From Polyangium mundeleinium (GTDB taxonomy: Bacteria; Myxococcota_A; Polyangia; Polyangiales; Polyangiaceae): DNA of 64,000 bases. Positions 4,087 to 52,700 of this stretch are shown here, piece after piece. The first letter of the stretch is position 1; each line of letters starts with the position of its first letter. The notes under the pieces were generated by a model. It had not been told where the DNA came from and ran no database searches. It saw nothing but the letters and a program-made list of their open reading frames with translations. The translations under genes and the position numbers were made by a program. The DNA lies in the NCBI RefSeq assembly GCF_028369105.1, contig NZ_JAQNDO010000001.1, positions 3,031,711 through 3,095,710 on the forward strand, written 5' to 3'.

Positions 4087-5718
4087 GTGATCTGCGACGT
4101 CTGCGGTCGTGAAAACGCCGACAACCTGACGTTTTGCCTGGATTGCGGCAGGCGCCTCCGGACCCAGGGGCGCGGCGTGCCGCCCACACCGCCCCACGGC
4201 ATCGAGCGTGTCGAGCGCGCCGCCGTCACCGAGGTCCGAAGCACGGACGACGCGCCGAGCTCCACGCCCGCGATCGCCTCGAACCCCGCTCCCTCGGCGA
4301 ACTCGACATCCGGCAGCCCGACGTCCGGCAGTCCGACGTCCGGCAGTCCGACATCCGGCAGCCCGACGTCCGGCGGCTCGGCTTCGTCGCCAAAACCCTC
4401 GGCGCCGCGCTCTCGGCCCGAGGCCCCCGCGCTCCAGTTCACCGTCTCGTTTGGCGCCGATGCGATCACGACCTGTCCGAGCTGTCGCTCCTCGAACCCG
4501 CCGGGGTACCGCTTCTGCGTGACGTGTGGCGCTTCGCTCGGTCGTCCCGCGGCCGCTTCGAACGAAGCCGCCGTCGTACGTCGCGCGCCGGAGTCCGAGC
4601 TCGAGCCCGAGCTGCTCGCCGCGCCTGTGGCCGCGCCGCCTCCTTCACCTCTGCCGACGGAGCCTCCCGCGGCGGCTCCCGTCCCCGCGCCGATCACGCA
4701 GACCCCGGCGGCCCGGCCGGTGTTTCCGCGCTCGGTGGTCGCGCCGAACCCGGAGAGCGCGCCGACCACGAGCCCCGACGACACGGGGGACAAGATCATC
4801 GGCGCGCCCGTCGTCGGGATCGCGACGGCCCGGACCGGCCCTCCGCGGCTCGTCCGTTGTGCGCGTTGCCACGGTCATTCCGCCGAGGGCATGCGCTTCT
4901 GCAAGTACTGCGGCGCGCCACTCGACGAGGGGGAGAAGGCCGCCCGCGCGGAGGCCGAGCCCACGTTCGTCGAGCCCGTGACCGCGGGGCGCAGGGACGA
5001 GCGGCTCGTGTCCACGTTCGTCGCCCCTGTGCCCGTCGCGCCTTCGGTCACGCCGAGCGGGCGCCTGCAGACCGGCCGGCTCGTCGTGATCGTGGAGGAT
5101 GGCAGCGAAGGCAAGTCGTTTCCGCTCGTGGATCGCCAGGTCGACGTCGGCCGGTCCGAGGGGGACATCCTCCTGTCGGACGATCTGTACGTCTCCCCGC
5201 GGCATGCGCGCCTCTTGCCCCAGGGGGGGCAGTGGATCCTCCGGAATCTGCATTCCACGAACGGGGTCTACCGGCGCATCCGGGAACCGCACGCCCTGAA
5301 AGACGGCGACTTGCTCCTCCTGGGCCTCGAAGTGTTACAGTTCGAAACCGTGAACGACGCGGAGCGAGGGCTCGGGCATGCAACCCAGCATGGGACCCTG
5401 TTGTTCGGGTCTCCCTCGACCCCGCGGCGCGCACGGCTCTGTCAGCGGACGGTCGAGGGTGTGACCCGCGACGTGTACCATCTGTTCCGGGACGAAACGG
5501 TGATCGGTCGAGAGGTGGGAGACATCGTTTTCACGGCCGATCCGTTCCTGTCGAGGCGGCACGCCGTCCTGCGCAGGAGCCCGATGAGCGGGGAGTTCAC
5601 GATCGCGGATCTGGATTCTTCCAACGGCACCTACGTCGCGATCCGCGCGGACGTCACCCTCGACAACGGCGACTACCTACGCATCGGCCAGCACCTGTTC
5701 CGGGTGGACCTCTCGTAG
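4087..5718 (+). CDS. Triple zinc-ribbon, double FHA-domain protein
   Basis: Cytosolic protein of 543 residues with three CxxC-x10-CxxC zinc ribbons (Cys3/6/17/20, Cys130/133/144/147, Cys258/261/272/275). Low-complexity Pro/Ala/Ser linkers separate them, and two forkhead-associated domains follow (about 330-420 and 451-543). Both FHA domains keep the GR, S-x-x-H and N-G phosphothreonine-binding signature (VGRSEG, SPRHARL, STNGVY; IGREVG, SRRHAVL, SSNGTY). FHA domains read pThr marks left by Ser/Thr kinases. A PP2C phosphatase starts eight bases downstream, so the pair probably works as reader and eraser of the same phosphorylation. GTG 4087 puts the first zinc ribbon at the N-terminus. A tandem repeat encodes the first linker. 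Confidence 0.87.
   Translation: MICDVCGRENADNLTFCLDCGRRLRTQGRGVPPTPPHGIERVERAAVTEVRSTDDAPSSTPAIASNPAPSANSTSGSPTSGSPTSGSPTSGSPTSGGSASSPKPSAPRSRPEAPALQFTVSFGADAITTCPSCRSSNPPGYRFCVTCGASLGRPAAASNEAAVVRRAPESELEPELLAAPVAAPPPSPLPTEPPAAAPVPAPITQTPAARPVFPRSVVAPNPESAPTTSPDDTGDKIIGAPVVGIATARTGPPRLVRCARCHGHSAEGMRFCKYCGAPLDEGEKAARAEAEPTFVEPVTAGRRDERLVSTFVAPVPVAPSVTPSGRLQTGRLVVIVEDGSEGKSFPLVDRQVDVGRSEGDILLSDDLYVSPRHARLLPQGGQWILRNLHSTNGVYRRIREPHALKDGDLLLLGLEVLQFETVNDAERGLGHATQHGTLLFGSPSTPRRARLCQRTVEGVTRDVYHLFRDETVIGREVGDIVFTADPFLSRRHAVLRRSPMSGEFTIADLDSSNGTYVAIRADVTLDNGDYLRIGQHLFRVDLS
4306..4377 (+). repeat. 15-bp in-frame tandem repeat (GSPTS-like linker)
   Basis: Nearly five copies of a 15-base unit (acgtccggcagtccg with single-base variants) encode TSGSP repeated in the linker between zinc ribbons 1 and 2 of the FHA protein. 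The unit length is a multiple of three, so gain or loss of copies keeps the frame. The differences between units are synonymous third-position changes. Confidence 0.85.
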
Positions 5719-5725
5719 TGAGCCC

Positions 5726-7003
5726 ATGAGCGAACAAGCCTCCCGAGAGACGCAGCCCGACTCGAACCGCACCGCGGACAGCGCCGAGGGTCTGCCCAGC
5801 GAGCGCAAGCCGAAGAAGTCCGCTCCGATCAAGCTGCGCTTGTTCGGTCGAACGGACGTGGGGCAGGTGCGCGAGCACAACGAGGACAACTTCATCGTCG
5901 CGGACCTGACGAAGGCGAGCCGCGGCTTGATGGAGACCGACCGGAACCAGCTCGTCGGCGAGCGAGGCGTGCTGCTCGGCGTTTGCGACGGCATGGGCGG
6001 CGCGGCCGCCGGCGAGGTCGCAAGCCAGCTCGCGGTCGACATCATCTTCCAGAAGATGATCTCGGGCGAGCCGCCGAAGGATCACGACGAGATCGCGGCG
6101 AGGCTCGTGCATTCGATCGAGTCGGCGGGCCTGCGCATCTTCAGCGAGGCGAAGCTCGATCGCACGCGGCGCGGGATGGGCACGACGTCCACCGTGTCGG
6201 CGCTCGTCGACGATCACCTCTTCATCGGCCAGGTCGGCGACAGCCGCGCGTACATCCTGCGCGGCGACAGGCTCGTGCAGGTGACGCGCGATCAGTCGCT
6301 CGTGAACCAGCTCATCGAGGCCGGTCAGCTCACCGAGGAGGAGGCCGAGACCTTCGAGCACAACAACATCATCCTGCAGGCGCTCGGCACCTCGGACAGC
6401 GTGCAGGTGGACCTCACGTTCGTCGAGCTCAAGCGCGGCGACACGCTCCTGCTCTGCTCGGACGGCCTCTCGGGCATGGTGCGCAACGAGGAGATCCGCG
6501 AGGTCCTGCGCACGATCGATGATCCGCTCGAGGTGTGTAAGACCCTCACCGATCGCGCAAACCAAGCGGGCGGTCACGACAACATCACGGTCGTCGTGTC
6601 GAAGTTCGAAGGCGAGGCGCTGCCCGAGCCGACGGAAGAGGACATCGCAGGGCTGCGCTACCGCAAGTACCAGCTCCCCGAGCCCATGCCGCCGAGCTCG
6701 CTCACGGCCCCCGATCCGAGCCGCCGTGTCAAGGAGCTCGATCAGCCGAAGATTTCGGTGCCGCTCACGCCGCTGCCCTCATCGACCTCGTCCGAAGGGC
6801 ACCGCCGCGAGAGCGACTCCGAGCGGCGGGAAGACGCCTCCAAGGACGGAGAGGGTCCATCTTCGTACGGGCCGCGTTCGCACGGCCCAGACGATCCGAT
6901 CCACATCCCGACCGACGGCGCGCCGCAGTGGCTCATCGTGATGATGATCGCGAGTGCGCTCGCGTGTATCACGATCGCCGGCTACTACCTGCTCAAGCCC
7001 TAG
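5726..7003 (+). CDS. PP2C-family Ser/Thr protein phosphatase, C-terminally membrane-anchored
   Basis: Metal-dependent phosphatase that removes phosphate from Ser/Thr, the usual counterpart of bacterial Hanks-type kinases. The catalytic domain spans about 35-295 with all PP2C motifs: GQVREHNEDNF (Asp54), GVCDGMGG (Asp88), GMGTTS, GQVGDSRAY, TRDQS, CSDGLSGM (Asp246) and GGHDNITV (Asp285). A disordered Pro/Ser/charged linker follows and ends in one transmembrane helix (WLIVMMIASALACITIAGYY, about 400-422), which leaves the catalytic domain in the cytosol. It starts eight bases after the FHA protein gene and is surely co-transcribed with it. PrpC/Stp1 enzymes are normally about 250 residues; the extra length here is the tail anchor. 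Confidence 0.94.
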   Translation: MSEQASRETQPDSNRTADSAEGLPSERKPKKSAPIKLRLFGRTDVGQVREHNEDNFIVADLTKASRGLMETDRNQLVGERGVLLGVCDGMGGAAAGEVASQLAVDIIFQKMISGEPPKDHDEIAARLVHSIESAGLRIFSEAKLDRTRRGMGTTSTVSALVDDHLFIGQVGDSRAYILRGDRLVQVTRDQSLVNQLIEAGQLTEEEAETFEHNNIILQALGTSDSVQVDLTFVELKRGDTLLLCSDGLSGMVRNEEIREVLRTIDDPLEVCKTLTDRANQAGGHDNITVVVSKFEGEALPEPTEEDIAGLRYRKYQLPEPMPPSSLTAPDPSRRVKELDQPKISVPLTPLPSSTSSEGHRRESDSERREDASKDGEGPSSYGPRSHGPDDPIHIPTDGAPQWLIVMMIASALACITIAGYYLLKP

Positions 7004-7061: not shown

Positions 7062-8090
7062 ATGCCGAGCGAGGTGCCGCGCGAGGCGATGGACGCAGAC
7101 GGTCGTGTGGACGTCGCGACAGCGCAGCGCATCGTGGAGAACGCGGTCGCGCGCGCGACGAGCGGGCCCGACAAGAGCGCGAGCATCATCGAGGCGAAGG
7201 TCGCGGAGGCGACGCGGCGAGGCGCGCGGCTGAACGCGCTGCTCGCGTTCGGCGTGGCTGTGACGCTGGTCGCGCTCGGGGTGGCGGCCCTCGTCGTGTA
7301 CCGATCGCAGCGCGCCGCGGCGATCCTGACGACCGAGGCGGGGCTCGGCGCGCGCCCAGTGGCGGCGCCCGTGGGCACGCTGCCGACGAAGGTGCTCTCG
7401 GGGCGCGAGATCTACGAGCAGAACAAGGGCGCGCTCTACGTCCTCGCGTACAAGCAGAACCGCCTCATCAGCGGCTGCTGCAGCGCCTTCGCGATCGGCA
7501 AGAACCAACTCGTGACGAACGCCCACTGCGTGACGTCGTGCGGAGCCCGCGGCGGAACGCCCGTGGTCGTGCAGAACGAGTCGGCTGGGAAGGTCGAGCT
7601 CGAGGTCGTCGCGCAGCGCGCGCACCCGACCTACAACACGTCGTCGAAGCGCGCCGACACACCCGACGTGGCGCTGCTCCGCGTGAAAGGGACGTTGCCC
7701 GTGGCCGTCACGCTGGCGAGCGACACGGAACTGCGTGCGCTCGGGCCGGGCGATGACATGTACGTGCTTGGCTTCCCTGGGCGAGTGATGGATCCGGTGA
7801 GCCCGTCGGCGACGTTCTTGAGCGGGCACCTCGGCCGGCTGATGGGCTTCGACGAGCAGGCCACGTCGGCGGACAAGGCCACGGTGATCCTGCACGACGC
7901 GGTCACGCGTGGCGGCAACAGCGGCAGCCCGATCTTCAACCAGTACGGCCACGTCATCGGTGTCCACGCGGCCCACGTGGACGACGAGGAAAACATCTCC
8001 ATCGACGGGCAGAAGACGACGATCGTGCAAGCCTCTCCCTACCGCATCGGTATGCGGATCGATCTCGTCCGCGGGGTGCCCACGCCGTGA
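7062..8090 (+). CDS. Membrane-anchored trypsin-like serine protease
   Basis: Protein of 342 residues: a short cytosolic N-terminus, one transmembrane helix (about 57-80), then a trypsin-fold domain outside the cytosol. The catalytic triad is complete: His155 in TNAHC, Asp202 in PDVALL and Ser287 in GGNSGSP. Extra Cys (CC at 139-140, C156, C160) suggest periplasmic disulfides. The frame is open further upstream, but ATG 7062 is preferred because the extension is Arg-rich and overlaps the phosphatase gene. It overlaps the next gene by four bases (GTGA), and that gene encodes a paralogue with the same membrane and protease layout. The substrate is unknown; a DegS-like regulatory role is possible given the signalling neighbours. 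Confidence 0.85.
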   Translation: MPSEVPREAMDADGRVDVATAQRIVENAVARATSGPDKSASIIEAKVAEATRRGARLNALLAFGVAVTLVALGVAALVVYRSQRAAAILTTEAGLGARPVAAPVGTLPTKVLSGREIYEQNKGALYVLAYKQNRLISGCCSAFAIGKNQLVTNAHCVTSCGARGGTPVVVQNESAGKVELEVVAQRAHPTYNTSSKRADTPDVALLRVKGTLPVAVTLASDTELRALGPGDDMYVLGFPGRVMDPVSPSATFLSGHLGRLMGFDEQATSADKATVILHDAVTRGGNSGSPIFNQYGHVIGVHAAHVDDEENISIDGQKTTIVQASPYRIGMRIDLVRGVPTP

Positions 8091-9532
8091 ACCTCCGGAT
8101 CGTGCACATCGCAGGGCAAAAAGCGGGGACATCGCAGACCTTCGAACGAGACGTCGTGCGGCTCGGCCGCGCGCCGGACAACGACGTCGTCTTCGACGCG
8201 AACCACGATCGCGAGGCGAGCGGCCATCACGCGGAGCTGCGTCGCGAGGGCGGCGCTTGGTACGTCGTGGATCTCGGCAGCCGCAACGGGACGTTCGCGG
8301 GTGGGCAGCGGATCCACCAGCGGCACCCGCTCACGCCCGGGACCGAGGTGAGCTTCGGCGCGAAGGGCCCGCGGATTCTGATCGAGCTCGTGCCCGCCGC
8401 GCCGCCGCTGGCACCTCTGCCGCCGATGGCGCCGATGCCGCCGCCGCCGCTGGGCATCGCGCCCGCCGCCGCGCCGCCGCGCGCGCAGGTCGCGCAGGCC
8501 GTGCAGCCGGCGCCTCCGGCGGGCGCGCGGGTCGGGCAACGGACGATCGCGATGATGATCTCGCAGGCCGTGGCCGTGGCGAGCGGGCGCCAGAAGTTCG
8601 GGCGGACGGCGGAGCTCAACGCGATCGTCGAGGAGAAGGTCACGGCGGCGACGGCGTCGCAACGCAGGACGGCGTACGTGCTCGGCGGGCTCCTCGTGAT
8701 CGCGCTGCTCGCGCTCGGCGGGCTCATCTTCTGGAGCACACGCTCGCAGGACGAGATCCAGCGCCTGCGCGAGGAACTCGCGCAGATGCCGCCCGAGGAT
8801 CCGCGCCGCAAGGAGATCGAGGGGCGGCTCGGCAACCTCCACCCGTCGAACGCGAGCTTCGGCCGAAACCTCTACGACCGATCGAAGAAGGGCATCTTCA
8901 TGCTCGCCTCGAAGGGTGAGGGCTTCTGCACGGCGTTCGCCGTCCGGCCCTCGATGCTCGCGACGAGCGCGCACTGCATCCAGGAGGCGAAGGCGAAGGG
9001 CTCGGTGGTCGCGCTGGAGAACGAGGGACGCGGGCAGGCGCGCTTCGACGTGATCGAGATGCGCACGCACCCGAGCTATCGCCCGACCGATCAGGAGAGC
9101 ATCACGCCCGACGTCGGCGTGTTGACCATCCGGGGCCGCTCGGCCGTCGTGCTGGAGATCGCGACGAAGCAAGAGCTCTCGGTGATGGGCGCGGGCGACG
9201 ACGTCTACCTCATCGGCTTTCCCGGCCGCTTGATGGACGCGACGAACCCCGCCGCGACGTTCCTCGCCGCGCACATCGGCCGCGTCACGAGCGCGTCCGG
9301 CCGTCCCGCGGCATACCAGGACGCCTGGCTCGTGCAGCACGACGCTGCGACGACACGCGGCTCGAACGGCAGCCCCGTCTGGAGCGGCCAGGGCAAGGTG
9401 ATCGCGGTGAACTCGGGCGGCTACCTCGAAGAGGGCGAGGAGAAGATCGCAGGTCGGAAGACGGAGGTCGTGAAGGCCTCGCCCTACAAGTTCGGCATGC
9501 GGATCGATCTCGTCGAGGCGCTGCTCAAGTAG
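8087..9532 (+). CDS. FHA domain-transmembrane-trypsin-fold protein, catalytic Ser replaced
   Basis: Protein of 481 residues: an FHA domain (6-98, with RLGRAP, SGHHAEL, SRNGTF), a Pro/Ala linker, a transmembrane helix (about 196-217), and an extracytoplasmic trypsin-fold domain. His296 (SAHC) and Asp342 (PDVGVL) are present, but the active-site loop reads GSNGSP instead of the GNSGSP of the upstream paralogue. This puts Asn427 where the nucleophilic Ser should be. The codons (ggc tcg aac ggc agc ccc) are unambiguous. The domain may therefore be a pseudoprotease that senses or binds, while its FHA domain reads phosphothreonine inside the cell. Neighbouring Ser426 or Ser429 could conceivably substitute. 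It overlaps the first protease gene by four bases and lies five bases before the permease pair. Confidence 0.85.
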   Translation: MNLRIVHIAGQKAGTSQTFERDVVRLGRAPDNDVVFDANHDREASGHHAELRREGGAWYVVDLGSRNGTFAGGQRIHQRHPLTPGTEVSFGAKGPRILIELVPAAPPLAPLPPMAPMPPPPLGIAPAAAPPRAQVAQAVQPAPPAGARVGQRTIAMMISQAVAVASGRQKFGRTAELNAIVEEKVTAATASQRRTAYVLGGLLVIALLALGGLIFWSTRSQDEIQRLREELAQMPPEDPRRKEIEGRLGNLHPSNASFGRNLYDRSKKGIFMLASKGEGFCTAFAVRPSMLATSAHCIQEAKAKGSVVALENEGRGQARFDVIEMRTHPSYRPTDQESITPDVGVLTIRGRSAVVLEIATKQELSVMGAGDDVYLIGFPGRLMDATNPAATFLAAHIGRVTSASGRPAAYQDAWLVQHDAATTRGSNGSPVWSGQGKVIAVNSGGYLEEGEEKIAGRKTEVVKASPYKFGMRIDLVEALLK

Positions 9533-9537
9533 TCACG

Positions 9538-11061
9538 ATGCTCAGGCTGGCGATCCGCAGGCTGCTCCTCATTCTTCCGACGTTGATCGGGGTCTCGATC
9601 GTCACGTTCCTGTTCCTCTCGTACGTCCCCGATCCGACGGACGATCCGGCGCTCGCCGTCACGCCCTCCGAGCGGGCGCGCCTTCGTCGCGAGCGATTTC
9701 TCGACCTGCCGCGCTTCGTGAACCTCGGAACACGCGACGTCCGCGCGCGGTCCGCCGAGGCGATGCGCGCGATCGTCGACGGCGACATCGCGCAAAAGGC
9801 GCGGGGGCAGGAGGAGCTCGCGCGTCTCGGCGGCGCGGCGTTGCCGCACGTGCTCCCCGCGCTCGACTCGCTCGCGCCCGGGCCCCGCGCCGAGGTCGCG
9901 CTCGCGCTCGCGCCGGTCGGCGAGCGGATGGGCTTCACGGGCGAGCGGCTCTCGGATCCGACGCGCGCGGTGGCGTTCTGGACGCGCTTCTGGGACGACC
10001 GCGGCATCGAGTTCCGCCGCGCGTCCGTGCGCAGCGCGGTCCGCAGGCTCTCGCGGTACGGCAGCACGACACGCGCGGCCGAGCTCCGCGAGCTCGACAC
10101 GTTCGTGCTGGAGGACGTCCTCGGCGCGCTGGAGCATCCGACCGACGCCGCTTCGTTCGAGCGAGCGCGGGCCCTCGTCGACATCGCCGCGCACGTCACG
10201 GGCCGCGACGATCGCATCTCGCCCGGCGAGGACTACGCCACGGCCCTCGCCTGCGTCGAGCGGTGGGGCTCGTTCTGGATGGTCTACAAGAACGACTTCG
10301 TGACGCTCGACGGCCCCTCGCGGTTCGCGGCCATCGTGCTCGAAACGCGTTACGGCAAGTGGGCGCTCGGCGCCGTCACGCGTCGGCTCGGCGTGGGCTT
10401 CGACGGCGTGCCCGTCCTCGACGGCCTCACGCGGCGTGCGCCGATCACGCTCACGCTCGTATTCGGCGCGATCGCGCTGGCATACGCGGCGGCCTTGCCA
10501 CTCGGTCTCCTCGGCGCCGCGTCACGTGGGCGTCGTCGCGACGGGATCACGGCGGCCATCGTGCTCGTGCTTTACGCGATCCCGACGGCGTTTTTCGCGC
10601 TCCTGGCGGCGCGGGGTTCCCATGGGCACGGGCTCGTCTTGCCCACGGTCGTGCTCGCGCTCGGCCTCGTGGCCGCGCCAGCGCGTCAGGCGCGCGCGGG
10701 CCTCGCGTCGGCGTTTGCCCAGGACCACGTGCGCGCCTCGCTCGCGCGGGGGGCGAGCCGCGCGCGTGCGCTCCTCGTTCACGCGCTCCCCGGTGCGCTC
10801 CTCCCGGTCGTCACGCTCGCCACGCTCGAAGCACCGATGGCGCTCGGCGGCGCCTTCGTCGTCGAGCGCGTCTTTGGCCTCGAAGGCCTCGGCGCGGCCA
10901 CGATCGTCGCCGTGCAGTCGCGCGACACGAGCTGGCTCATGGCCGTCTCGATCTTCACGGCCGCGACCGCGACGATCGGGGTCATCATGACGGACCTCGT
11001 GTACACAGCGCTCGATCCGCGGCTCGCGCAGAGCATCCTGCGCCAGAGGCCGCGCACATGA
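9538..11061 (+). CDS. Oligopeptide-type ABC transporter permease (DppB/OppB-like) with a large insert
   Basis: Inner-membrane permease of 507 residues. The first helix (LLLILPTLIGVSIVTFLF) is typical of DppB/OppB proteins, and the C-terminal five-helix core (about 300-500) carries the EAA-type coupling loop (HVRASLARGASRARALLV). Between helix 1 and the core lies an extracytoplasmic region of roughly 260 residues, against about 80 in ordinary family members. It is helical with repeated hydrophobic patterns suggestive of HEAT-like repeats (LARLGGAALPHVLPALDSLA). The following gene overlaps by four bases (ATGA) and encodes the partner permease. No binding protein or ATPase gene is nearby, so the rest of the transporter must be elsewhere. 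Peptides are the likely substrate by family. Confidence 0.86.
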   Translation: MLRLAIRRLLLILPTLIGVSIVTFLFLSYVPDPTDDPALAVTPSERARLRRERFLDLPRFVNLGTRDVRARSAEAMRAIVDGDIAQKARGQEELARLGGAALPHVLPALDSLAPGPRAEVALALAPVGERMGFTGERLSDPTRAVAFWTRFWDDRGIEFRRASVRSAVRRLSRYGSTTRAAELRELDTFVLEDVLGALEHPTDAASFERARALVDIAAHVTGRDDRISPGEDYATALACVERWGSFWMVYKNDFVTLDGPSRFAAIVLETRYGKWALGAVTRRLGVGFDGVPVLDGLTRRAPITLTLVFGAIALAYAAALPLGLLGAASRGRRRDGITAAIVLVLYAIPTAFFALLAARGSHGHGLVLPTVVLALGLVAAPARQARAGLASAFAQDHVRASLARGASRARALLVHALPGALLPVVTLATLEAPMALGGAFVVERVFGLEGLGAATIVAVQSRDTSWLMAVSIFTAATATIGVIMTDLVYTALDPRLAQSILRQRPRT

Positions 11062-12277: not shown

Positions 12278-12658
12278 TCACGACTCGACGCTGATGAGAT
12301 CCACCGCGAAGCACCGGAGCGCGTGCAAGCTGCGCCGCTGCCAGTGCATCTCCGGGTTCGACAAGAGCCGGATCTTGTACTCCTTGCTCCTCTCGAGATC
12401 GCCGATCTCGCTGATCCAGGTCACGAAGCTCTTGAAGCAGGACGAGTTCATGAACTCGAGGTTGCGGAAATCTACCTGCACCTCGGTGGCGCTGATCCGC
12501 TGCGCCTCGGCGTGCACGCGCGGCAGCAGGGAATCCAGGCTGTCTTTTGCGGCCATGTCCGCGTTGCCCGAGAGGCGCAGGATGAGCGAGCGGCCCTCCG
12601 CGCGCACGTTCGCCGAGAAATCGCGGAGCGCGACCGAGAGATCCGAGGCCGCGCTCAC
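12278..12658 (-). CDS. STAS-like anti-sigma antagonist (RsbV/SpoIIAA-like)
   Basis: Single-domain cytosolic protein of 126 residues with the strand/helix pattern of STAS proteins. The segment VQVDFRNLEFMNSSCFKSF resembles the phosphorylation loop of SpoIIAA/RsbV (D-x-S-S), with Ser72 and Ser73 as candidate phospho-acceptors. It overlaps the RsbW-like ATPase gene by four bases, and a SpoIIE phosphatase gene precedes that. These are the three components of a partner switch in one transcript. By family logic the ATPase would phosphorylate this protein and the SpoIIE enzyme would dephosphorylate it. The domain is divergent, so STAS-like is safer than a firm RsbV call. No sigma-factor gene is adjacent. 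Confidence 0.72.
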   Translation of the reverse strand: MSAASDLSVALRDFSANVRAEGRSLILRLSGNADMAAKDSLDSLLPRVHAEAQRISATEVQVDFRNLEFMNSSCFKSFVTWISEIGDLERSKEYKIRLLSNPEMHWQRRSLHALRCFAVDLISVES

Positions 12659-13146
12659 GAGCGCCTCCGCGCCGTGACGGTCGTCTGCGCCAGGATCGTG
12701 ACCCTGTCGTCCTCGATGGTGTGGCTCATCGTCATCTCTCCTTCGGCACGCACGCGCACGAGGCCGAGCCCCGAGCCCACCTTCCGCTTGGCGCTGCGCG
12801 CCATCGCGATCTGGTAGTGGCCGAAGGGATCGTCGTGCAGGCTCATCTCCTCGAAGATAGTGGCAACCGCGGCGATGTGCTCGGCGTTCGCCCGGTTCAT
12901 GAGCCGGATGGAGACCGTGCTCGACGTCCCTCCCGGCTCGAACGTGACGGATAAAAACGTCGCGCCGTCGCTCGCGTATTTGACGGCGTTCTCCAGGAGC
13001 TCGTGGGTCGCGAGCGCGATGCGCGACACCGTGTCGTGGTCCTCGATCATCCGTTCGTAAAAGTCGGACAGGAACCTACGAACGATGGAGATGAGCTCGA
13101 CATTGGGCTGGAACGTCAGCTCGAACGCGGTCGGTGTCTCGGTCAT
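12655..13146 (-). CDS. RsbW/SpoIIAB-like ATPase (anti-sigma or switch kinase)
   Basis: GHKL-fold ATPase of 163 residues. The N-box HELLENAVKY (Asn53 should bind Mg-ATP) and the glycine-rich GSGLGL loop (124-129) are intact. The DxGxG box is not clear, as is common in this small family. Such kinases phosphorylate a STAS partner on Ser and otherwise bind and inhibit a sigma factor or another effector. The gene overlaps the STAS-like gene by four bases (ATGA) and follows the SpoIIE phosphatase gene by 59 bases, all leftward. No membrane segment is present. Confidence 0.85.
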   Translation of the reverse strand: MTETPTAFELTFQPNVELISIVRRFLSDFYERMIEDHDTVSRIALATHELLENAVKYASDGATFLSVTFEPGGTSSTVSIRLMNRANAEHIAAVATIFEEMSLHDDPFGHYQIAMARSAKRKVGSGLGLVRVRAEGEMTMSHTIEDDRVTILAQTTVTARRRS

Positions 13147-13205
13147 CGTACCTCGCGGTCCTGGATCCAGGACGCGGCTGTGCGGATCGCGCCGTTCAAT
13201 CTATC

Positions 13206-14999
13206 TCAGCCTTCGGCGCTCGTCTCGTTCGCCCTGAAGCGCACGACGACGAGCGTCACGTCGTCCTCCTGGGTGCTGGCGAAGCGGGCCACGTCGTCGA
13301 GGATCACGTCGCGGATTTGCTCCACGGGCTCGCCCGCGAGCGCCTGGATTTGCTGGGTGAGTCGCTCCATCCCGTACATCTCGCCCGACGCGCCCCGCGC
13401 CTCCGTCACGCCGTCCGTGTAGAGCACCATCACGTCGCCGTCCTCGAGGACGAGCTCGTCGTCTTGCACCGTCCGTGCGACGTCGCGCATCGCGCCGACC
13501 CACGGGCCGAGCGTGGGGATCATCTCGATCTTCCCGGTGCGCGCGCGCAGGATCAGGATGTCCTCATGCGCCCCGGCGAAGACCACGCGTCCGCTCCGGT
13601 GGTAGCGCATCACCGTCAGCGTGACGTGCTCGTCGTTGCGCAGGCGGTTGCGGATGTTCTCGTAGAGCACGAGGTTCAGCACGCGCACGAGATCCTTCGG
13701 CCGGGCCGACGGATCCTCCCGCCCGAGCGCCGCGATCGCGCTCTGCACCATCAGCATCACGAGCCCTGACTTCAGGCCGTGCCCCGCCACGTCGCCGATC
13801 GCGAGGATGCCGCCGCCCTCTACGGGGAAGACGTCGTAGTAGTCGCCGCCGACCTCGCTCGCCGGGATCATCCGCGCCGCCACGTCGAGCCCTGGCACGT
13901 CGAGGCGCCGCGGCAGGATCGACGTCTGGATCCGCGCGCTGATCTCGAGCTCCTTTTCGAGCCGCTCCTTCGCCGCCATCTGCTCGCGTGACTCCGCGAG
14001 CTCGCGCGCCATCCGGTTCATCGCCTCGCCGAGCGCGCGGATCTCCGTCGGCCCGGACGTGGTCGCTTGCGTGTCGAGTTTTCCGCGCGACACGTCGCCC
14101 ACGAACGCCATGAGCCCGTCGAGCGGGCGCGAGAGCCTGCGCGAGAGCACGATCGCGAGCGCCGCTGCCGCGGCAAGCGCGACGAGCGCGATGAGCGCCA
14201 CGCGTGCTTCGAGCTCGCGGGAGGGCACGAGCGCGCGATCGAGCGAGCGCGCGAGGTGCACGGTCCGCGTCGCGCCCGTGCCCGTATCCAGCGTCCGCGA
14301 CGTCGACAGATACGGCCCGCCCTCATGCGCGGACGGCGTCGTGAACATTCGGAGCACCTCGCTCGGCACATCCCTTCCATCTTCGAGCTTCGAATGCGCC
14401 ACCACCGTGGCCCCATCCGTCACCGCCACGAGGCTCCCCGTCTGGAGACGCACCTCCTCGACGAGCGCGTGGTCGAGCTTGAAGCCGAGCACCAGCACGC
14501 CGACCGTCTCGGTCCCGAACGAGAGCCGCCGCGCGACCACCTCGTAGAGCTTCCCCTCGTTCGTCCAGAGCCCGGACCTGTCGCCTTCGCGCAGCGCGCC
14601 CGCCACGATCGGATCCTTCGACATGTCGAAGCCCGACGCCTTCGGATCGGCCACGTCCGCGAGCAGGATTCCGGTCCCGTCCGTCATCAGGAAGAGATCA
14701 CTCTTCACGGCTTTGCGCAGCTCGTCGGCCACGCCGTAGACCGTCTCCGGCGACACGTCCTCCGTCGCCACGACCGCCTTGAGCCGTGGCTCTTCCGCCA
14801 CCACGTGCGCCTTCGCCGCGTGCGCGCGCAGCCGCTCGGTGCGATGCGATTCGAACACGCGCGCGCTCCGTTCGAGCGCCTCCCCGAGCTCCTCCCTTGC
14901 GCGCCGCTCCAGCACGATCGCCGCGCTTCCCGCCGTGGCCACCGTGATCGCCGCGATGAGGAGCACGATCCAGAGCAGCAGCGTGCTCCGGAACTTCAT
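13206..14999 (-). CDS. Membrane-bound SpoIIE/RsbU-type PP2C phosphatase with sensor and HAMP domains
   Basis: Protein of 597 residues: a transmembrane helix (about 8-30), an extracytoplasmic sensor of roughly 225 residues with PAS-like/Cache features, a second helix (about 270-290), a HAMP linker (SRRLSRPLDGLMAFVGD), a short coiled-coil, and a cytosolic SpoIIE phosphatase domain. Metal-binding motifs are intact (GGDYYDVF, IGDVAGHG, YTDGVTEA, EDDVTLVVV). It should translate an outside signal into dephosphorylation of the STAS-like protein encoded 0.5 kb downstream. The frame is open upstream, but ATG 14999 begins the first helix and overlaps the cytochrome stop by four bases (ATGA). This couples the phosphatase directly to the cytochrome gene. 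Confidence 0.92.
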   Translation of the reverse strand: MKFRSTLLLWIVLLIAAITVATAGSAAIVLERRAREELGEALERSARVFESHRTERLRAHAAKAHVVAEEPRLKAVVATEDVSPETVYGVADELRKAVKSDLFLMTDGTGILLADVADPKASGFDMSKDPIVAGALREGDRSGLWTNEGKLYEVVARRLSFGTETVGVLVLGFKLDHALVEEVRLQTGSLVAVTDGATVVAHSKLEDGRDVPSEVLRMFTTPSAHEGGPYLSTSRTLDTGTGATRTVHLARSLDRALVPSRELEARVALIALVALAAAAALAIVLSRRLSRPLDGLMAFVGDVSRGKLDTQATTSGPTEIRALGEAMNRMARELAESREQMAAKERLEKELEISARIQTSILPRRLDVPGLDVAARMIPASEVGGDYYDVFPVEGGGILAIGDVAGHGLKSGLVMLMVQSAIAALGREDPSARPKDLVRVLNLVLYENIRNRLRNDEHVTLTVMRYHRSGRVVFAGAHEDILILRARTGKIEMIPTLGPWVGAMRDVARTVQDDELVLEDGDVMVLYTDGVTEARGASGEMYGMERLTQQIQALAGEPVEQIRDVILDDVARFASTQEDDVTLVVVRFRANETSAEG

Positions 15000-16225
15000 G
15001 GCCGCGCCACCACCGTCTTCGGCAGGTGCTCGCGCCCCTTGCCGCTTCGTTTTCCGCCGAACGGCATCTCGATCTTCCCCATCGTACGTTCCTCCGCGGG
15101 CACGCCGAGCGCCTCCGACAGCGCGGGCGACACGGAGCGCCACGCCACCTCGATCACGAGCGAGCCCGCTCGCGGCGCGTCGAGCTCGAACGTGAACGTA
15201 CGCGCCTCGCCCGCTGCGATCCGCTCGTCGCTCTTCTCCGCCCGCGCCGCGTAAAACGGCACCTCGCGCCCCGCTTCGTCCACGAGCACCCGCCCAATCG
15301 TGCGCTCCTCGCGCGCCTGCGCGTGGCCCTTCTCATCGAGCGCCTGCACGCGCACGACGACCTGCCTCCCGGGCAACCCCGACGGCACCGCGTGCCCTGC
15401 GCCTTCGTTCTTCAGCACCACGGAGACCGCGAGTGTACCTGCTCGGTCCGCCGCCGACGCCACGATCCCGAGCGCCTTGCGCACGAGCTCGCCCTTCTCG
15501 CCCATGAACCCGTGATGGCCCACGCGCACCTTCCGCTCGCTGCCCGTCGCCGCGTGCGTCACCTCCGGCGGCATGTGGCACTCCTGGCACGCCGTCCCCG
15601 AGACCGAGAAGCTCGACGCGCGCCACTCGGCGTACTCGTTGATGATCGGCAAGCTCTTCCCATCCGCGATCGGCATCGAGAACGTGTGACAGCCGCCGCA
15701 GACACGCGCGTCGCGGAACCAGGGCGCGCAGCCCATCCTGTGGAAGTAGTTGTCCTTGCCGTCGCAGTACGGCCCGAACTTCCGGTTTCCTTGGAGGTCG
15801 AACGAAGAACGTGGCTCGGCCGCCGACTCCCCGACGTCGCGGATCGCGTGGCACGCCTCGCACGTCACGCCCTCGTCGACGGCCCTCTCCGCCGGATCCG
15901 TGAGCGTCGCGAGCGGCGCGTGGCACGCCTCGCACGTGGCGTTTTTCGACCGGTCCCGCATCGCCACGTAGAGCGGCGAACTCCGCGCGCGCGCGTGCCC
16001 CGACGTCTTCCACTCCGCGTGGAGCATGCCGTGACACTCACCGCATCGATCGGCGGGGAACGCGCGCGGGCGCGGTGGTTCGAGGGAAGAGGGTTTGTCC
16101 GGGGACGCGGACGCGGGCGTGGGCGCTTCGAGGTTCGTTCCCGAGCGCTCGGAGCCTGCCGGCGGCGCGGAGGGATTGCAGGCGAACGTGCAGGCGAAGA
16201 GCGCCGTTACTTGTACCGGCCGTAT
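14996..16225 (-). CDS. Five-haem cytochrome c lipoprotein (start codon uncertain)
   Basis: Multihaem c-type cytochrome with five CxxCH motifs in order: CGECH, CEACH, CEACH, CGGCH, CQECH. A C-terminal beta-rich domain of about 170 residues follows (KVRVGHHGFMGEKGELV onward), similar to that of cytochrome c554-like family members. The N-terminus reads VTALFACTFACNP, a short hydrophobic stretch ending in a lipobox-like TFAC, so it is probably a lipid-anchored periplasmic or outer-membrane electron carrier. I find no ATG, GTG or TTG in frame between the end of the copper-protein gene and the first haem motif. The 5' end given (an ATA codon) is a placeholder; a rare start codon, a frameshift or a sequence error are the alternatives. 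The 3' end overlaps the SpoIIE gene by four bases. Confidence 0.8.
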   Translation of the reverse strand: MRPVQVTALFACTFACNPSAPPAGSERSGTNLEAPTPASASPDKPSSLEPPRPRAFPADRCGECHGMLHAEWKTSGHARARSSPLYVAMRDRSKNATCEACHAPLATLTDPAERAVDEGVTCEACHAIRDVGESAAEPRSSFDLQGNRKFGPYCDGKDNYFHRMGCAPWFRDARVCGGCHTFSMPIADGKSLPIINEYAEWRASSFSVSGTACQECHMPPEVTHAATGSERKVRVGHHGFMGEKGELVRKALGIVASAADRAGTLAVSVVLKNEGAGHAVPSGLPGRQVVVRVQALDEKGHAQAREERTIGRVLVDEAGREVPFYAARAEKSDERIAAGEARTFTFELDAPRAGSLVIEVAWRSVSPALSEALGVPAEERTMGKIEMPFGGKRSGKGREHLPKTVVARP

Positions 16226-22189: not shown

Positions 22190-24205
22190 TTACTGTTTCG
22201 GGATCGTCACCGGCACCGTGGCCGTGTTGTTGTCGAGGCTGACCTCCTCGAACTCGCGGCTCGGGTTCAGCTTCACCTGGATGAAGTACTCACCCTCCGG
22301 CACACCCGTGATGTCGAGCCACTGGCAATCGAGCGTGTTTCCATAAAGATCCGACCACCCGCGCTGGATGCCTTGATCCTCGCACGTGTAGATCTTGTTG
22401 CAGCCCACGTTCGGGCCGAGGGCGATCTGCTGCGTGTCCTCCATGCAATACGCCTGCTTGCGCCCGGTCACGATCTCCTTGCCGTCCTTGTCGAGCAGCG
22501 CGTACGTCGCGAACCCGTTGAAGTGGTAATGGCCGTGGCAGGGCGAGAAGAGGAACAGATCCGGCCGCTCCGACGGCGGCGGCACCGTGAGCGTCGCCAT
22601 GCCCTGGTTCTTCGCCTCCACGCTGAAGCGGAGCAGCTTCCGCAGGCCCGTCCCGCCCACGCATTCCTCGATGAACGCGCACGAGTTCGGGCTCACGTCG
22701 AGCGTGTCGAAGAGGATCTCCTCGGCGAGCCGCTTCTCGTCGATCACGAGGTCCGCCATCGGCTCGTTCGCCGCGTGGCAGCCGCAGTCCGTCCCGCAGA
22801 ACTCGCCCGCGCCGCAGGGCGGATCGCACACCGGCGTCTCGTTGTTGCAATCCGCGAAGACCTGGCATTTCGACGTCGCCGGCACGCAGAGCGAGCCCTC
22901 GGCGCACGAGCCGCACGTCCCGCCGCAGCCGTCGTCGCCGCATTGCTTGTCCGCGCAGTCCGGCACGCACGGGTCGGGCCGACAGCGCCCCTCGGCCGAG
23001 CAGGCGAAGCCCGCGTCGCATGTCCCGCAGTCGCCGCCGCAGCCGTCGTCCGTGCCGCAATACAGGCCGTCGCAATGCGGGACGCAGCCGTTCGCCGTGA
23101 ACTTCACCTGCAGGTCGAACGCGCCGTACTGGGAGGCGTCGAACCCGTCGACGATGAGGTAATACGTCCCCGGATCGAGCGCCGCGTCCACGCGTGAGCC
23201 GTAATCGCCGGGCGGCGAGGCGTCGTCGCTGCAACCCACGGTCGCGGCGGGTTTGTCGTCCAGGCATTCGTTTTCGGGTGTCGCTGGGTTTTCCTTCCGG
23301 ATGTGCAGCACCGTGTCGTAGCCCGAGACGCGCGCCTCGATGCCCATCTTCTCGGTCAACTCGAACTTGTAGACGGCCTCCACCGCCGTGCTCGTCGAGT
23401 TGCACGTCGGCACGACCTCGTGCAGGCCGTTCGTCGTGTCTCCCGTGATCGGGTGGACCCCGAGCAGTGCCGTGCCCGCCGGGAGCAGATCGAGCGGGGC
23501 CGCGCAGGATCCGGCCTGGTTCGCGGGTTTGCACACGTTCGTCGCGTTCGCGCACGCCTCGCCCGCGGGACAGCTCCCGCAGCTCCCGCCGCAGCCGTTG
23601 TCGCCACACACCTTGCCCGTGCAGTCCGGCGTGCAATCCGAAGTGCAGGACTGGCAGTTCGGCCCGAGCGTGTGGTTGCAGGTGTCCGTCGCCTCGTCGC
23701 ACGTGTCCGTCGTGCATTCGGCGCCGTCGTCACACGGGTTCGGCCCGGTCACACACTGCCCCGCGACGAGCCGATCCGCGCCGTTGCAGTAGACGCCGTC
23801 GCTACACGTGAGCTCGGTCGCGGGCGAGGCGATCGAGCCGAACTTCCCCCCCTCGTACCGCGCGTCGAAGTTCAGCTTGAAGAGCCCCGTGCGCACGGGC
23901 GCGGTCAACTTGCCCTGGAACGTGCCGGTGCCGCCCGGATCCACCTCGCCTGCGAGCGCGAGCGACGCGCTCGTGAAGCCCTGCCCGTCCGGCAGCACGA
24001 GCGTGACCTCGCCGGGCACCCACGTCGCCTGCCCGCTATTTCGTGCGTCGACCTTGACGTTGACCACGGTGCCGGGCTTGACGCGCGCGTCGATCGTGAC
24101 GACCGCGTCCGCGATCCCGAACTCGGAGACGTCGTCCGAGCAGCCGGGAACGAGCACGTGAAGGGCCGGGAGAAAGCAGAGCGGGATGAGCCGTCGATAT
24201 CGCAT
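22190..24205 (-). CDS. Lysyl-oxidase-domain lipoprotein with Cys-rich repeats
   Basis: Lipoprotein of 671 residues (lipobox ending at Cys22). Next come a CARDB-like beta domain (about 35-130), a Cys-rich region with three units of the form CxPxCxxxxCGxxGCGGxCGxC interleaved with a pre-peptidase-like beta domain (about 235-370), and a C-terminal lysyl oxidase domain. That domain keeps the copper-binding CHGHYH (His557, 559, 561) and, aligned to human LOX, the Lys (Lys583 in GRKQAYCMED) and Tyr (Tyr621 in DLYGNTLDCQW) that form the lysine-tyrosyl-quinone cofactor. By family it oxidises lysine side chains to aldehydes, here on the cell surface. It is first in a two-gene unit with the phosphodiesterase. 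Confidence 0.9.
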   Translation of the reverse strand: MRYRRLIPLCFLPALHVLVPGCSDDVSEFGIADAVVTIDARVKPGTVVNVKVDARNSGQATWVPGEVTLVLPDGQGFTSASLALAGEVDPGGTGTFQGKLTAPVRTGLFKLNFDARYEGGKFGSIASPATELTCSDGVYCNGADRLVAGQCVTGPNPCDDGAECTTDTCDEATDTCNHTLGPNCQSCTSDCTPDCTGKVCGDNGCGGSCGSCPAGEACANATNVCKPANQAGSCAAPLDLLPAGTALLGVHPITGDTTNGLHEVVPTCNSTSTAVEAVYKFELTEKMGIEARVSGYDTVLHIRKENPATPENECLDDKPAATVGCSDDASPPGDYGSRVDAALDPGTYYLIVDGFDASQYGAFDLQVKFTANGCVPHCDGLYCGTDDGCGGDCGTCDAGFACSAEGRCRPDPCVPDCADKQCGDDGCGGTCGSCAEGSLCVPATSKCQVFADCNNETPVCDPPCGAGEFCGTDCGCHAANEPMADLVIDEKRLAEEILFDTLDVSPNSCAFIEECVGGTGLRKLLRFSVEAKNQGMATLTVPPPSERPDLFLFSPCHGHYHFNGFATYALLDKDGKEIVTGRKQAYCMEDTQQIALGPNVGCNKIYTCEDQGIQRGWSDLYGNTLDCQWLDITGVPEGEYFIQVKLNPSREFEEVSLDNNTATVPVTIPKQ

Positions 24206-49655: not shown

Positions 49656-49783
49656 GCCCCTCCCTCGCGATCTCATCTCAAAAGGAACCAAATCCCGGCT
49701 CGGGTGTCCTGGTAGAGTCTTCTCGACAGGATCGGGGGCGCGCCTGTGCCTTCGCATTCCTTTCGATGTGGAGGCACCCCAGG

Positions 49784-52700
49784 ATGTCCTCGTACCGCGC
49801 TCGTCCGCGCCTCGCCCTCGTGGTGCTGGCGTTTTTTGCCCTGGTTTGTCCGGGGCTGCTCACCGCGTGTCGTGAACTGGAGCGCCCGCTCCTGCCACGA
49901 TCCCAAACCTGGGCCGAGCTGCGGACGGTCCGCCGCGACGTCCTGGTCGCGCCGCCCGGCGAGCCAGAACGGCCTCCGTACCCACGCGAAAGGCTCGTGG
50001 ACGGCGAGGTGGTGCGGGTGCAGCAAGACGGGCTCGCGTGGCTCCGGCGCGATGGCGGCGCGACGCTGCTCATCCGAGGCCCTGCGGAGCTCGTCCTCCA
50101 CGCCGACGTGATCGACATCAAGCACGGGCGCGTCTTCGTGGACACGCCCGCGACGATCACGACCGAGCTGCGAACGCCGACCGGGCCGCTGCACCTCGCG
50201 CACGTGCGGGCGAGCATCGACGTGGCGCAGAAGGACGGCGCGTCGGACGTGTACGTGCTCGCTGGCGAGGTCCGCACGGATGGCGCGGCGCGCGCGACGG
50301 CGGGCGAGCGGCTCACGCTCGAACCGCACAAGGGAGAGCCGACGGCGAAGACGTCGCCGGTGCTCACGTGGGAGGACTGGACGGGCGGCCTCGCCACGAC
50401 GGATCGCTCCGCCGAACCTTCGCCGTACGGCGTGGGTACGGTGGGCGCACGTCGCCCGGGCGAGCAAGGCGCGCCGCGCTTCCCGCTCGCGATCCAGAGG
50501 CTCGACGTGCGGGTGTCGATCCAGGAGGACTTCGCGATCACCGAGGTCGACGAGGTCTTCTTCAACCCGAGCTCGGCGACGGTCGAGGGCGTGTATCGGT
50601 TCCGCACACCCGCGGGCGCGACGCTGCACAAGTTCGGCGTGGATCGCGACGGCGTGGTGTTCTGGGGGTACGTCAAGGAGAAGCAGGCCGCCGCCGCGCA
50701 GTACCAGGCGAATGTCTACGAGGGTAGCAAGGAGGATCCGGCGCTGCTCGAGTGGGAGGCGCCGGGCGTGTACAAGGCGCGGCTCTACCCGCTGTTGCCC
50801 GGACAATCGCGTCGCGTCGTGGTGCGTTACGCCGAGTGGCTCGGACGCACGGGCGCGCGCGGTGAACGCCGGCTCTACGTGTACCCGATGGCGGCCGAGG
50901 GCGCCGAGGGGTCGCTCCCGCACATCGAGGAGCTGACGGCGACGATCGATCTCGCGCGGGCCGGCGCGCGCGAGGTGCGCACGGGCATGAGCGGCGTGCG
51001 CGAGGGCGGGACGATCACGGTGCGCGCGCAGGATTTCGTGCCGAGGGCCGATCTCGCGATCGAGCTCTTCGACGACGGCCTCGTCGCGCCGCGCGGCTAC
51101 ACGGCGCAGCACACGATGGATCTCGAGACGGTGCCGCCTTCGGAGCGCGCGGACGCGATGCAACGCGCGAAGACGGAGGCCGACTACGTCATCGTACCGG
51201 TGCGATCCGCCGACGTGCCGCTCGCGAAGGGCGGGCTCGATCTGGCGATCGTGATCGACACGTCGGCCGCGACGGACGCGCCGTCGCTCGCGATCGCACG
51301 CGCGACGACGGCGGCGCTCCTCGCGCACCTCGGCAAGGACGATCGGGTGGGCGTGTTCGGCGGGGACACGTCGCTCGTGCCGGTCGTGCCGGGCAGGGAG
51401 GGGCTTGCGCCGATCGACGAGGCGGGGCGGCGCGAAGTGCTGGCGCGGATGTCGCGCATCGAGCGAGGTGGCGCGACGGATCTCGGGTCGATGTTGAGCC
51501 AGGCCGCGGCGCTGCTCGATCCGGCGCGGCGCGGCGCGGTGGTGTACGTCGGCGACGGCGCGCCCACGGTCGGCGAGCTCAGGCTGCAGGAGCTGCGCGA
51601 TCGGATGGCGAAGTTGCCGCGGCCGGTGCGGATGTTCGGCGTGGGCGTGGGCGACGAGGCGGACATGGCGCTGCTCGAAGGCCTCGCGCGGGGCGGGTTT
51701 GCCGAGCGCGTGGCCGACGCAAACGCGGCGGCGCGCGTGGCGCTCCGGCTGCTCGAACATGCAGAGCGTCCGGTTTGGCTGGGCGCGCAGGTGGATCTCG
51801 GGCCGACGGTCGAGCGCATTTTCCCGCGGGATCTCGGCGCGCTTGTGGCAGACGAGAGCATCGCGGTGATCGGCCGCGTGACGTCGGCCGGGCTGCCGAC
51901 ATCGGTCTCGCTGACGGGGCCCGCGGGTACGGTCAAGACGAACCTGCAGGTCACGCGGATCGAGGACGAGGGCGATCTGCGGCGTCGCTGGGCGGAAGGG
52001 CGCCTCTTGCAGATGATGGCCGAGGCGACGGGGCGCGCGGCGATGGTGGATCTCGGCTCGCGGCACGCGATCATCACGCCGGTCACGTCGCTCTACGTGC
52101 CGACGAAGAACGAGATGACGCCGGAGGAGCGCGCGGAGCTCGAGCGCAAGAAGGGCATGGCGCGCAGCCTCGTCGAGACGAAGCGGCGGATGGGCTGGAC
52201 GCCGATCATCAAGGCGGACGTCGACGACGAAGAAGAGGAGAACGGGATCGCAGCCGTGGAGGTCGCTGCCGCGCCCAACGCCGACAACAAGGAAGGTGGC
52301 ACGGGCACGCGCGCGAAGGGCGAAGAGGGATCCATGGGGAACCCGGTGACGCGCGCCACGGGCAACCGCTACGGCGTGCAAGGGCCGCAGGACAACGCCG
52401 ATCCGCACATCGCGCGACAAGCCGCGCTGCGCGACGCGGCCGAGTTCGGGATGATCGGCATGCTGAACACGGGCGCGGGCGGTGATCCGAACGCGCCGAC
52501 GGCGCCGTGGGGGCGCGACGACTCGCTCGCGAGGGATCAGAGCTCCGCAGCCGGCAACCAGTGGGGCAGCGCGATCGGCGACGGGTTCGGCGCGGGGGGC
52601 CTCGGGCTCTCGGGTGTCGCCGAAGGTGGCGGCGGACGAGGCGAGGGGATCGGGCTCGGTTCCATCGGGACCATCGGGCACGGGGCTGGCACGGGCACGG

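Follow-up and report, generated by a model that had tools for sequence, protein, structure and literature searches.

Our data describe a predicted membrane-spanning protein that seems to combine a phosphothreonine-reading FHA domain inside the cell with a trypsin-like domain, deprived of its catalytic nucleophile, on the outside, and which is encoded directly behind a paralogue with an intact catalytic triad. Both genes lie in a 64,000-nt stretch (the window, to which all coordinates refer) of the 13.25-Mb genome of Polyangium mundeleinium: protein A, a membrane-anchored trypsin-like protease of 342 aa, at 7062..8090 and protein B, of 481 aa and starting with GTG, at 8087..9532, both on the + strand. 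The closest named relative for B is Polyangium fumosum (97% over B). Judged from the sequences compared here, B belongs to a family of FHA-linked, predicted periplasmic proteases that repeatedly loses its nucleophile and keeps its phospho-reader, with a sister showing the opposite loss in one myxobacterial family. Whether this means that an FHA-linked protease has been split, with B acting as a phospho-reading pseudoprotease subunit and A as the catalytic subunit of an A/B complex, is in our view an evenly balanced call, and it is this reading that is weighed below.

Protein B consists of an FHA domain (aa 24–91, 8156..8359; Pfam E 1.1e-18), a Pro/Ala-rich linker, a predicted membrane helix and a trypsin-like domain (Trypsin_2, aa 281–441, 8927..9409; Pfam E 5.7e-14). 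The membrane helix, placed at about aa 197–216 (8675..8734), was recognized by eye as a hydrophobic stretch and is part of a helix spanning aa 177–232 in the structural model; an N-in/C-out topology is predicted from the flanking Arg residues together with the exported-type fold of the C-terminal domain. In Foldseek searches, the AlphaFold model of B, which is of middling confidence (mean predicted local distance difference test score (pLDDT) 66.2, predicted template-modelling score (pTM) 0.49; 75.5 and 0.69, respectively, for A), retrieved trypsin-fold structures including elastase, Rv3671c, DegS and DegP, with E values of 3.5e-9 and weaker. The catalytic His and Asp positions are kept (His296, codon 8972..8974; Asp342, codon 9110..9112) and form invariant columns with His155 and Asp202 of A in a 21-row alignment. 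At the nucleophile position, however, B has Asn427, encoded by AAC (9365..9367) where relatives have the Ser codon AGC. Thus, B shares the trypsin fold of active Trypsin_2/S1 peptidases but reads His-Asp-Asn instead of His-Asp-Ser in all six Polyangium species, and with the fold retained by Pfam, alignment and Foldseek and a catalytic residue gone, Polyangium B is probably a pseudoprotease, predicted to be inactive.

A first-pass annotation of this DNA had noted the GNSGSP active site of A as well as the Asn at the nucleophile position of B next to a retained His and Asp, and both observations hold, RGSNGSP of B standing opposite GGNSGSP of A. Asn427 is not a sequencing error, because the same Asn is present in all six Polyangium genomes found. 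Its description as a Ser–Asn swap, by contrast, had to be abandoned: relatives of B read GTSGSP or GMSGSP, which makes the Ser before the Asn a separate change, and GSNGSP would have been reached from an ancestral G[T/M/S]SGSP motif by two independent point changes. That B acquired its motif by copying from A was rejected as well, since substitutions alone yield the B motif and the length is unchanged (judged by eye), and so was Ser426 as a substitute nucleophile in all Asn forms, since the Sorangium Asn forms carry Met at that position.

Protein A (Pfam Trypsin_2, E 4.1e-19; no FHA match) aligns to B with 36% identity (E 5e-63). Its His155-Asp202-Ser287 triad is intact, His-Asp-Ser is found in 15/15 A proteins, and A looks able to cut. 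The two genes stand in tandem in all 15 genomes that have the pair, and at each of these loci the stop codon of A overlaps the start codon of B in the four bases NTGA (GTGA at 8087..8090, + strand, in the window). Moreover, the cytosolic helix that precedes the membrane segment is similar in A and B, with Arg148, Thr153, Ala161, Val162, Ala188, Arg194 and Leu199 of B invariant in the 21 rows; that this shared helix has a role in dimerization is only a guess. Both proteins also match the anti-phage model RT-Protease_XI of PADLOC, a fusion of a reverse transcriptase and a trypsin for which no curated cut-off is given, but membership was rejected because the matches are limited to the trypsin end (A 120–310 to model positions 333–491 of 506; B 260–452 to 330–496 of 510).

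The state of the nucleophile was followed through the family (108 genomes, with the A/B pair in 15), the order (66 of 144 genomes matched; loci taken for 35 of the 56 matches that lie outside the family of the window) and the class (38 of 96 genomes matched, 34 of them outside the order; loci taken from 30 of these 34). Since the order loci were chosen mostly for long open frames, short FHA-only proteins are under-counted. Within the family, B carries Asn in 6/6 Polyangium species and 3/5 Sorangium, and Ser in the other two Sorangium, in Minicystis, in a Byssovorax metagenome-assembled genome (MAG) and in the genome G006; a sixth Sorangium-group genome, G103, has the FHA part of B only. Asn is encoded by AAC in all nine cases and Ser by AGC in all five, and the two states are therefore separated by one G-to-A transition. 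Asn as a hallmark of the FHA form was rejected, as homologues of this form with Ser exist (GTSGSP, GMSGSP and GSSGSP). The first-pass annotation had reckoned that such homologues would point to a recent mutation only. The homologues are there, but they do not lead to this conclusion: the Asn is conserved throughout the genus Polyangium, recurs in Sorangium and is one among several routes to nucleophile loss.

This recurrence is also where a special chemistry of the Asn form would have to be considered, for instance a cyclization at Asn-Gly leading to cleavage or cross-linking of the chain, or some remaining hydrolase activity. All nine nucleophile losses in the family lead to Asn with Gly next to it and with His and Asp kept, as this reading would have it, but the Gly is invariant in every form, and recurrence of Asn needs no special chemistry because one G-to-A transition turns AGC into AAC; we consider such chemistry very improbable. 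We know of no described protein of the trypsin fold that uses Asn as its nucleophile.

Beyond the family, the His-Asp-Ser triad is kept in two other families of the order (f8, 5/5; f6, 13/13) and in 26/26 trypsin-bearing relatives examined outside the order (including L148, which was retained despite no FHA domain being detected). Three further families of the order lost the nucleophile in other ways: f3 has Ala in all four proteins with a trypsin domain, with the His also replaced in one; f7 has Met (1/1); and in f5 the nucleophile loop is deleted and the His replaced in all seven proteins with a trypsin domain. In five more proteins of the order, an FHA domain was found and a trypsin domain was not detected. 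Ser is, as the 26/26 relatives outside the order indicate, the ancestral state at the nucleophile position of B. On an 85-row tree its loss takes at least four state changes—one in f3/f5/f7, one in Polyangium and two within Sorangium—and a careful 59-row tree also gives four changes between Ser and not-Ser. For these trypsin trees, the B of G103 (L058, where the stretch holds the FHA part only) and five FHA-only rows were dropped, as was, before tree building, one f5 locus with a trypsin hit and no detected FHA domain (L157, genus g81). The count of four was used rather than the 10 obtained for the nucleophile states on the 85-row tree, an inflated figure since the loop missing from f5 is aligned at random. 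In the 85-row tree, f3, f5 and f7 cluster (97, from a short search) on long branches, and because they are grouped in this way, their losses of the nucleophile may be one event or several.

At the other end of the protein, the FHA signature residues (GR, S-x-x-H and N-G) are kept in B of the window, as seen in a residue table, in 50/50 B rows of the order and in 19/25 FHA-bearing rows outside it, and the FHA domain of B is predicted to read phosphothreonine. The 6/25 rows that have lost signature residues all belong to f20 and all keep the triad; at these loci (L130, L138–L140, L143 and L144), proteases with an intact triad thus carry FHA domains in which phosphothreonine residues are lost, and a PP2C gene was not found next to any of them. 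That only the second of the two tandem proteins carries an FHA domain, as had been noted at first, is true of the window but not of the whole family: the A proteins of Minicystis and of the Byssovorax MAG also pass the Pfam FHA cut-off (41.1 and 50.8 bits; cut-off 20.7), with all three signature positions changed, while no FHA domain was detected in A of Polyangium, Sorangium and G006. No row among those examined has lost both the FHA signature and the triad. These reciprocal losses across related rows form a pattern rather than a test.

An important question is whether the trypsin-like domain of B, once deprived of its nucleophile, is simply on its way out. The protease-like domain might be dispensable and only the FHA part matter, with Polyangium at an early, near-neutral step towards domain loss and no partnership with A, and what would be the later steps of such a series do occur elsewhere, i.e. 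Ala in f3 (4/4), Met in f7, loss of loop and His in f5 (7/7) and the five FHA-only proteins, with the FHA residues kept in all. In the six Polyangium species, however, the trypsin domain of B is 96% identical as compared with 90% for the FHA domain, its mean ratio of nonsynonymous to synonymous substitution rates (omega) of 0.141 is below that of A (0.167), with 0.235 for the FHA domain of B and 0.550 for the linker, and His and Asp are kept in 9/9 Asn forms. Likewise, the ratio of trypsin to FHA divergence is 0.37 (95% interval 0.20–0.66) for Polyangium B, as against 2.66 (1.77–4.36) for f3 and 2.17 (1.71–2.79) for f5, i.e. 2.2–2.7 in the decaying lineages, both of which are nucleophile-less and without A; Sorangium has 0.75, and the five Ser-bearing families measured range from 0.68 to 0.88. 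By these ratios, nucleophile loss went together with rapid decay in f3 and f5 and occurred without decay in Polyangium, where the trypsin domain of B is, in terms of substitution patterns, under strong purifying selection and not decaying. We therefore regard dispensability as unlikely. The Polyangium domain appears to be held by selection, with a weaker case in Sorangium (omega 0.243, ratio 0.75). Nine columns have changed in Polyangium B that are invariant in the family's other eight B proteins, including (in a numbering shifted to B) residue 294, two before His296, and residues 432–433, just past the nucleophile loop.

Several observations weigh against the division of labour between A and B that we favour. 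In Sorangium, the omega of the B trypsin domain (0.243) is higher than that of the FHA domain (0.189), which is the opposite of Polyangium. The low Polyangium ratio is based on shallow divergence (21 variable columns in the trypsin domain), and there is overlap between its interval and those of Sorangium B, f8, f16, f20 and f22, with that of f6 just touched. Furthermore, f3, f5 and f7 lost the nucleophile without having any A, so that an active partner is not a prerequisite for this loss. Conversely, A stands beside a Ser-form B in two Sorangium strains, Minicystis, the Byssovorax MAG and G006, so that the pair is also functional where both triads are intact. Finally, 93 of the 108 family genomes have no B match at E 1e-20, so the pair is dispensable in most of the family. 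No trypsin-like frame was found in 19 loci from family genomes without the pair (L097–L115), and an ABC permease gene directly follows the PP2C gene in 16 of them, which indicates that A and B were lost together.

In Sorangium, the nucleophile could even have been regained. A tree of neighbouring genes (PP2C, A and ABC permeases; 4784 columns) branches in the order So ceGT47 (Ser), So ce26 (Asn), G099 (Asn) and, together, So0157-2 (Asn) and a MAG (Ser), with support of 80/79 on one branch and two branches starred. The states on this tree would be explained either by two changes, if the MAG reverted from Asn to Ser, or otherwise by three Ser-to-Asn events, a history that rests on five strains including one MAG and in which recombination is possible. 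The B protein of So0157-2 (L026:6001-8034) has two FHA stretches, a partial FHA domain and an Ala/Pro/Tyr-rich linker having been duplicated in tandem.

The first-pass annotation had suggested that an inactive outside domain linked to an inside phosphothreonine reader could signal across the membrane or regulate the active paralogue. A non-catalytic role, linked either to A or to signalling across the membrane, is made plausible by the missing nucleophile, the retained fold, the FHA residues, the constraint in Polyangium and the strict tandem with a triad-intact A, including the conserved 4-base overlap. In the A/B complex that we favour, B would descend from an active FHA-linked periplasmic trypsin. 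A Ser/Thr kinase would phosphorylate a protein inside the cell, the neighbouring PP2C would reverse this, and the FHA domain of B would bind the phosphothreonine form, all of which follows known functions of these domain families. Through the membrane helix, the signal would then reach the pseudotrypsin domain and alter the state of A, a step suggested by the tandem coupling, the common fold, the common cytosolic helix and the retained constraint. As Asn replaces Ser, B is proposed to be unable to form an acyl-enzyme, and its outside trypsin fold would have been retained intact to provide a surface for binding or assembly. A, the translationally coupled sister, would have lost the FHA domain and kept catalysis, such that B provides the cytosolic input and A does the cutting. 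The signal could also run the other way, if the outside domain senses a peptide that the FHA domain then reports. In evolutionary terms, one may picture, as a reading that we consider less likely than not, a single-chain FHA-linked periplasmic protease that was duplicated into a two-subunit, phosphorylation-gated protease, in which A lost the phospho-reader and kept catalysis while B kept the phospho-reader and is losing catalysis, with a nucleophile position that behaves as if switchable between Ser and Asn.

The same features, i.e. the common fold of A and B, the single locus and the coupled translation, would also suit a B protein that acts as a decoy or inhibitor by binding substrates or the periplasmic ligand of A or by forming mixed oligomers of lowered activity, from which the state of the FHA domain would bring release. 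A precedent may be seen in the inactive trypsins of conflict systems in myxobacteria and other multicellular bacteria, for which roles as dominant negatives or peptide binders were proposed (PMC7159879). At 36% identity, however, the pockets of A and B may differ, and the Ser-form B in sister species argues against a fixed inhibitory role; a decoy function thus seems improbable.

The gene neighbourhood is consistent with phospho-signalling. Upstream of A, the window encodes an Stp1-type PP2C phosphatase that carries a hydrophobic helix at its C-terminus (5726..7003, + strand; Pfam), which scores 237.6 bits with the NCBIfam model Stp1_PP2C_phos (curated cut-off 230) and hence belongs to the Stp1/IreP group, and, before it, a zinc-ribbon protein with two FHA domains (4087..5718, + strand; Pfam). 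PP2C is present in 102/108 family genomes and lies beside A/B in 14/15 pair loci, the exception being the Byssovorax MAG, where it is about 7 kb off. Among the order loci, PP2C is found in 47/48 and the zinc-ribbon–FHA gene in 45/48; outside the order, PP2C occurs within the fetched stretch in 12/26 trypsin-bearing loci, with 0/12 in f20 and 0/2 in f30. Moreover, the gene after B encodes an FHA-GAF-nucleotide cyclase in 3/3 loci tested, two from f6 (L065:7516-9249 and L072:7525-9375) and one from f16 (L142:6208-7875), which fits a phospho-signalling locus.

Among known systems, MarP (Rv3671c) and the HtrA/DegS types share with A and B an N-terminal membrane anchor and an outside trypsin-fold domain, and the best Foldseek matches of B include Rv3671c, DegS and DegP. 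However, A matches the MarP family (NF033740) only weakly (39.8 bits; cut-off 250), B is not listed for it, and B differs from all of these by its inside FHA domain and the absent Ser nucleophile. For the FHA part, FhaB/FipA (Rv0019c) and TagH of the type VI secretion system, which have the same signature residues, are the best NCBIfam models, with B remaining below both cut-offs (NF049868, 73.1 bits versus 125; TagH, 34.9 versus 120.25); we know of no trypsin-like domain in either. Insect clip-domain serine protease homologues are trypsin-fold pseudoproteases that act together with active proteases, but these are secreted, eukaryotic and without an FHA domain or a co-translated active sister. 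In the Clp core of cyanobacteria and plastids, the triad-less paralogue ClpR assembles with an active one (PMC7966870). A similar assembly of A and B is what we propose, but ClpR has an unrelated fold, forms a cytosolic barrel and carries no phospho-reader. VMAP/vWA-MoxR conflict systems of multicellular bacteria include the dead trypsins referred to above, but the A/B neighbourhood differs in having no MoxR/vWA pair, and an FHA-membrane helix-trypsin chain is unmentioned in the portion of that paper at hand (PMC7159879).

Literature searches on FHA domains combined with trypsin or periplasmic proteases (in myxobacteria and with PP2C), on Asn nucleophiles and on pseudoproteases, with limited coverage of subscription journals, did not find this architecture. 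Bacterial pseudoproteases have been little studied, and we know of no established inside-out route from Ser/Thr phosphorylation to periplasmic proteolysis. The locus offers a natural series within one protein family—intact, one base off, Ala, Met, loop lost, domain lost—and with sister species in either state, the pressures that keep a fold and the reversibility of a pseudoenzyme become askable. If A and B do form a complex, this would be reciprocal subfunctionalization, in which the sensing and the cutting parts of a protease have moved to separate genes; if the reversion is true, an inactive subunit would have been preserved well enough for one base to restore the enzyme.

Some further features of the window were observed. 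In Polyangium, Sorangium and Minicystis, B is followed by the gene of a DppB/NikB-like ABC permease (9538..11061, + strand; Pfam BPD_transp_1 and synteny), in the window of 507 aa, in which about 190 extra residues separate the first helix from the permease domain (Pfam 319–497), and the linker of the zinc-ribbon protein with two FHA domains (4087–5718) holds a run of TSGSP-type repeats. An apparent cluster of STAS, anti-sigma and SpoIIE-type phosphatase genes (named by eye; 12278–15143, − strand) adjoins the locus and is retained in Polyangium relatives. Another gene on the − strand (22193–24205) encodes a protein that has a lysyl oxidase domain at its C-terminus (Pfam E 3.6e-33), which is, to our knowledge, unusual in bacteria. 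Finally, two big adjacent proteins of 1551 and 1484 aa, encoded at 49766–58872, contain VIT domains, with a weak VWA match in one of them.

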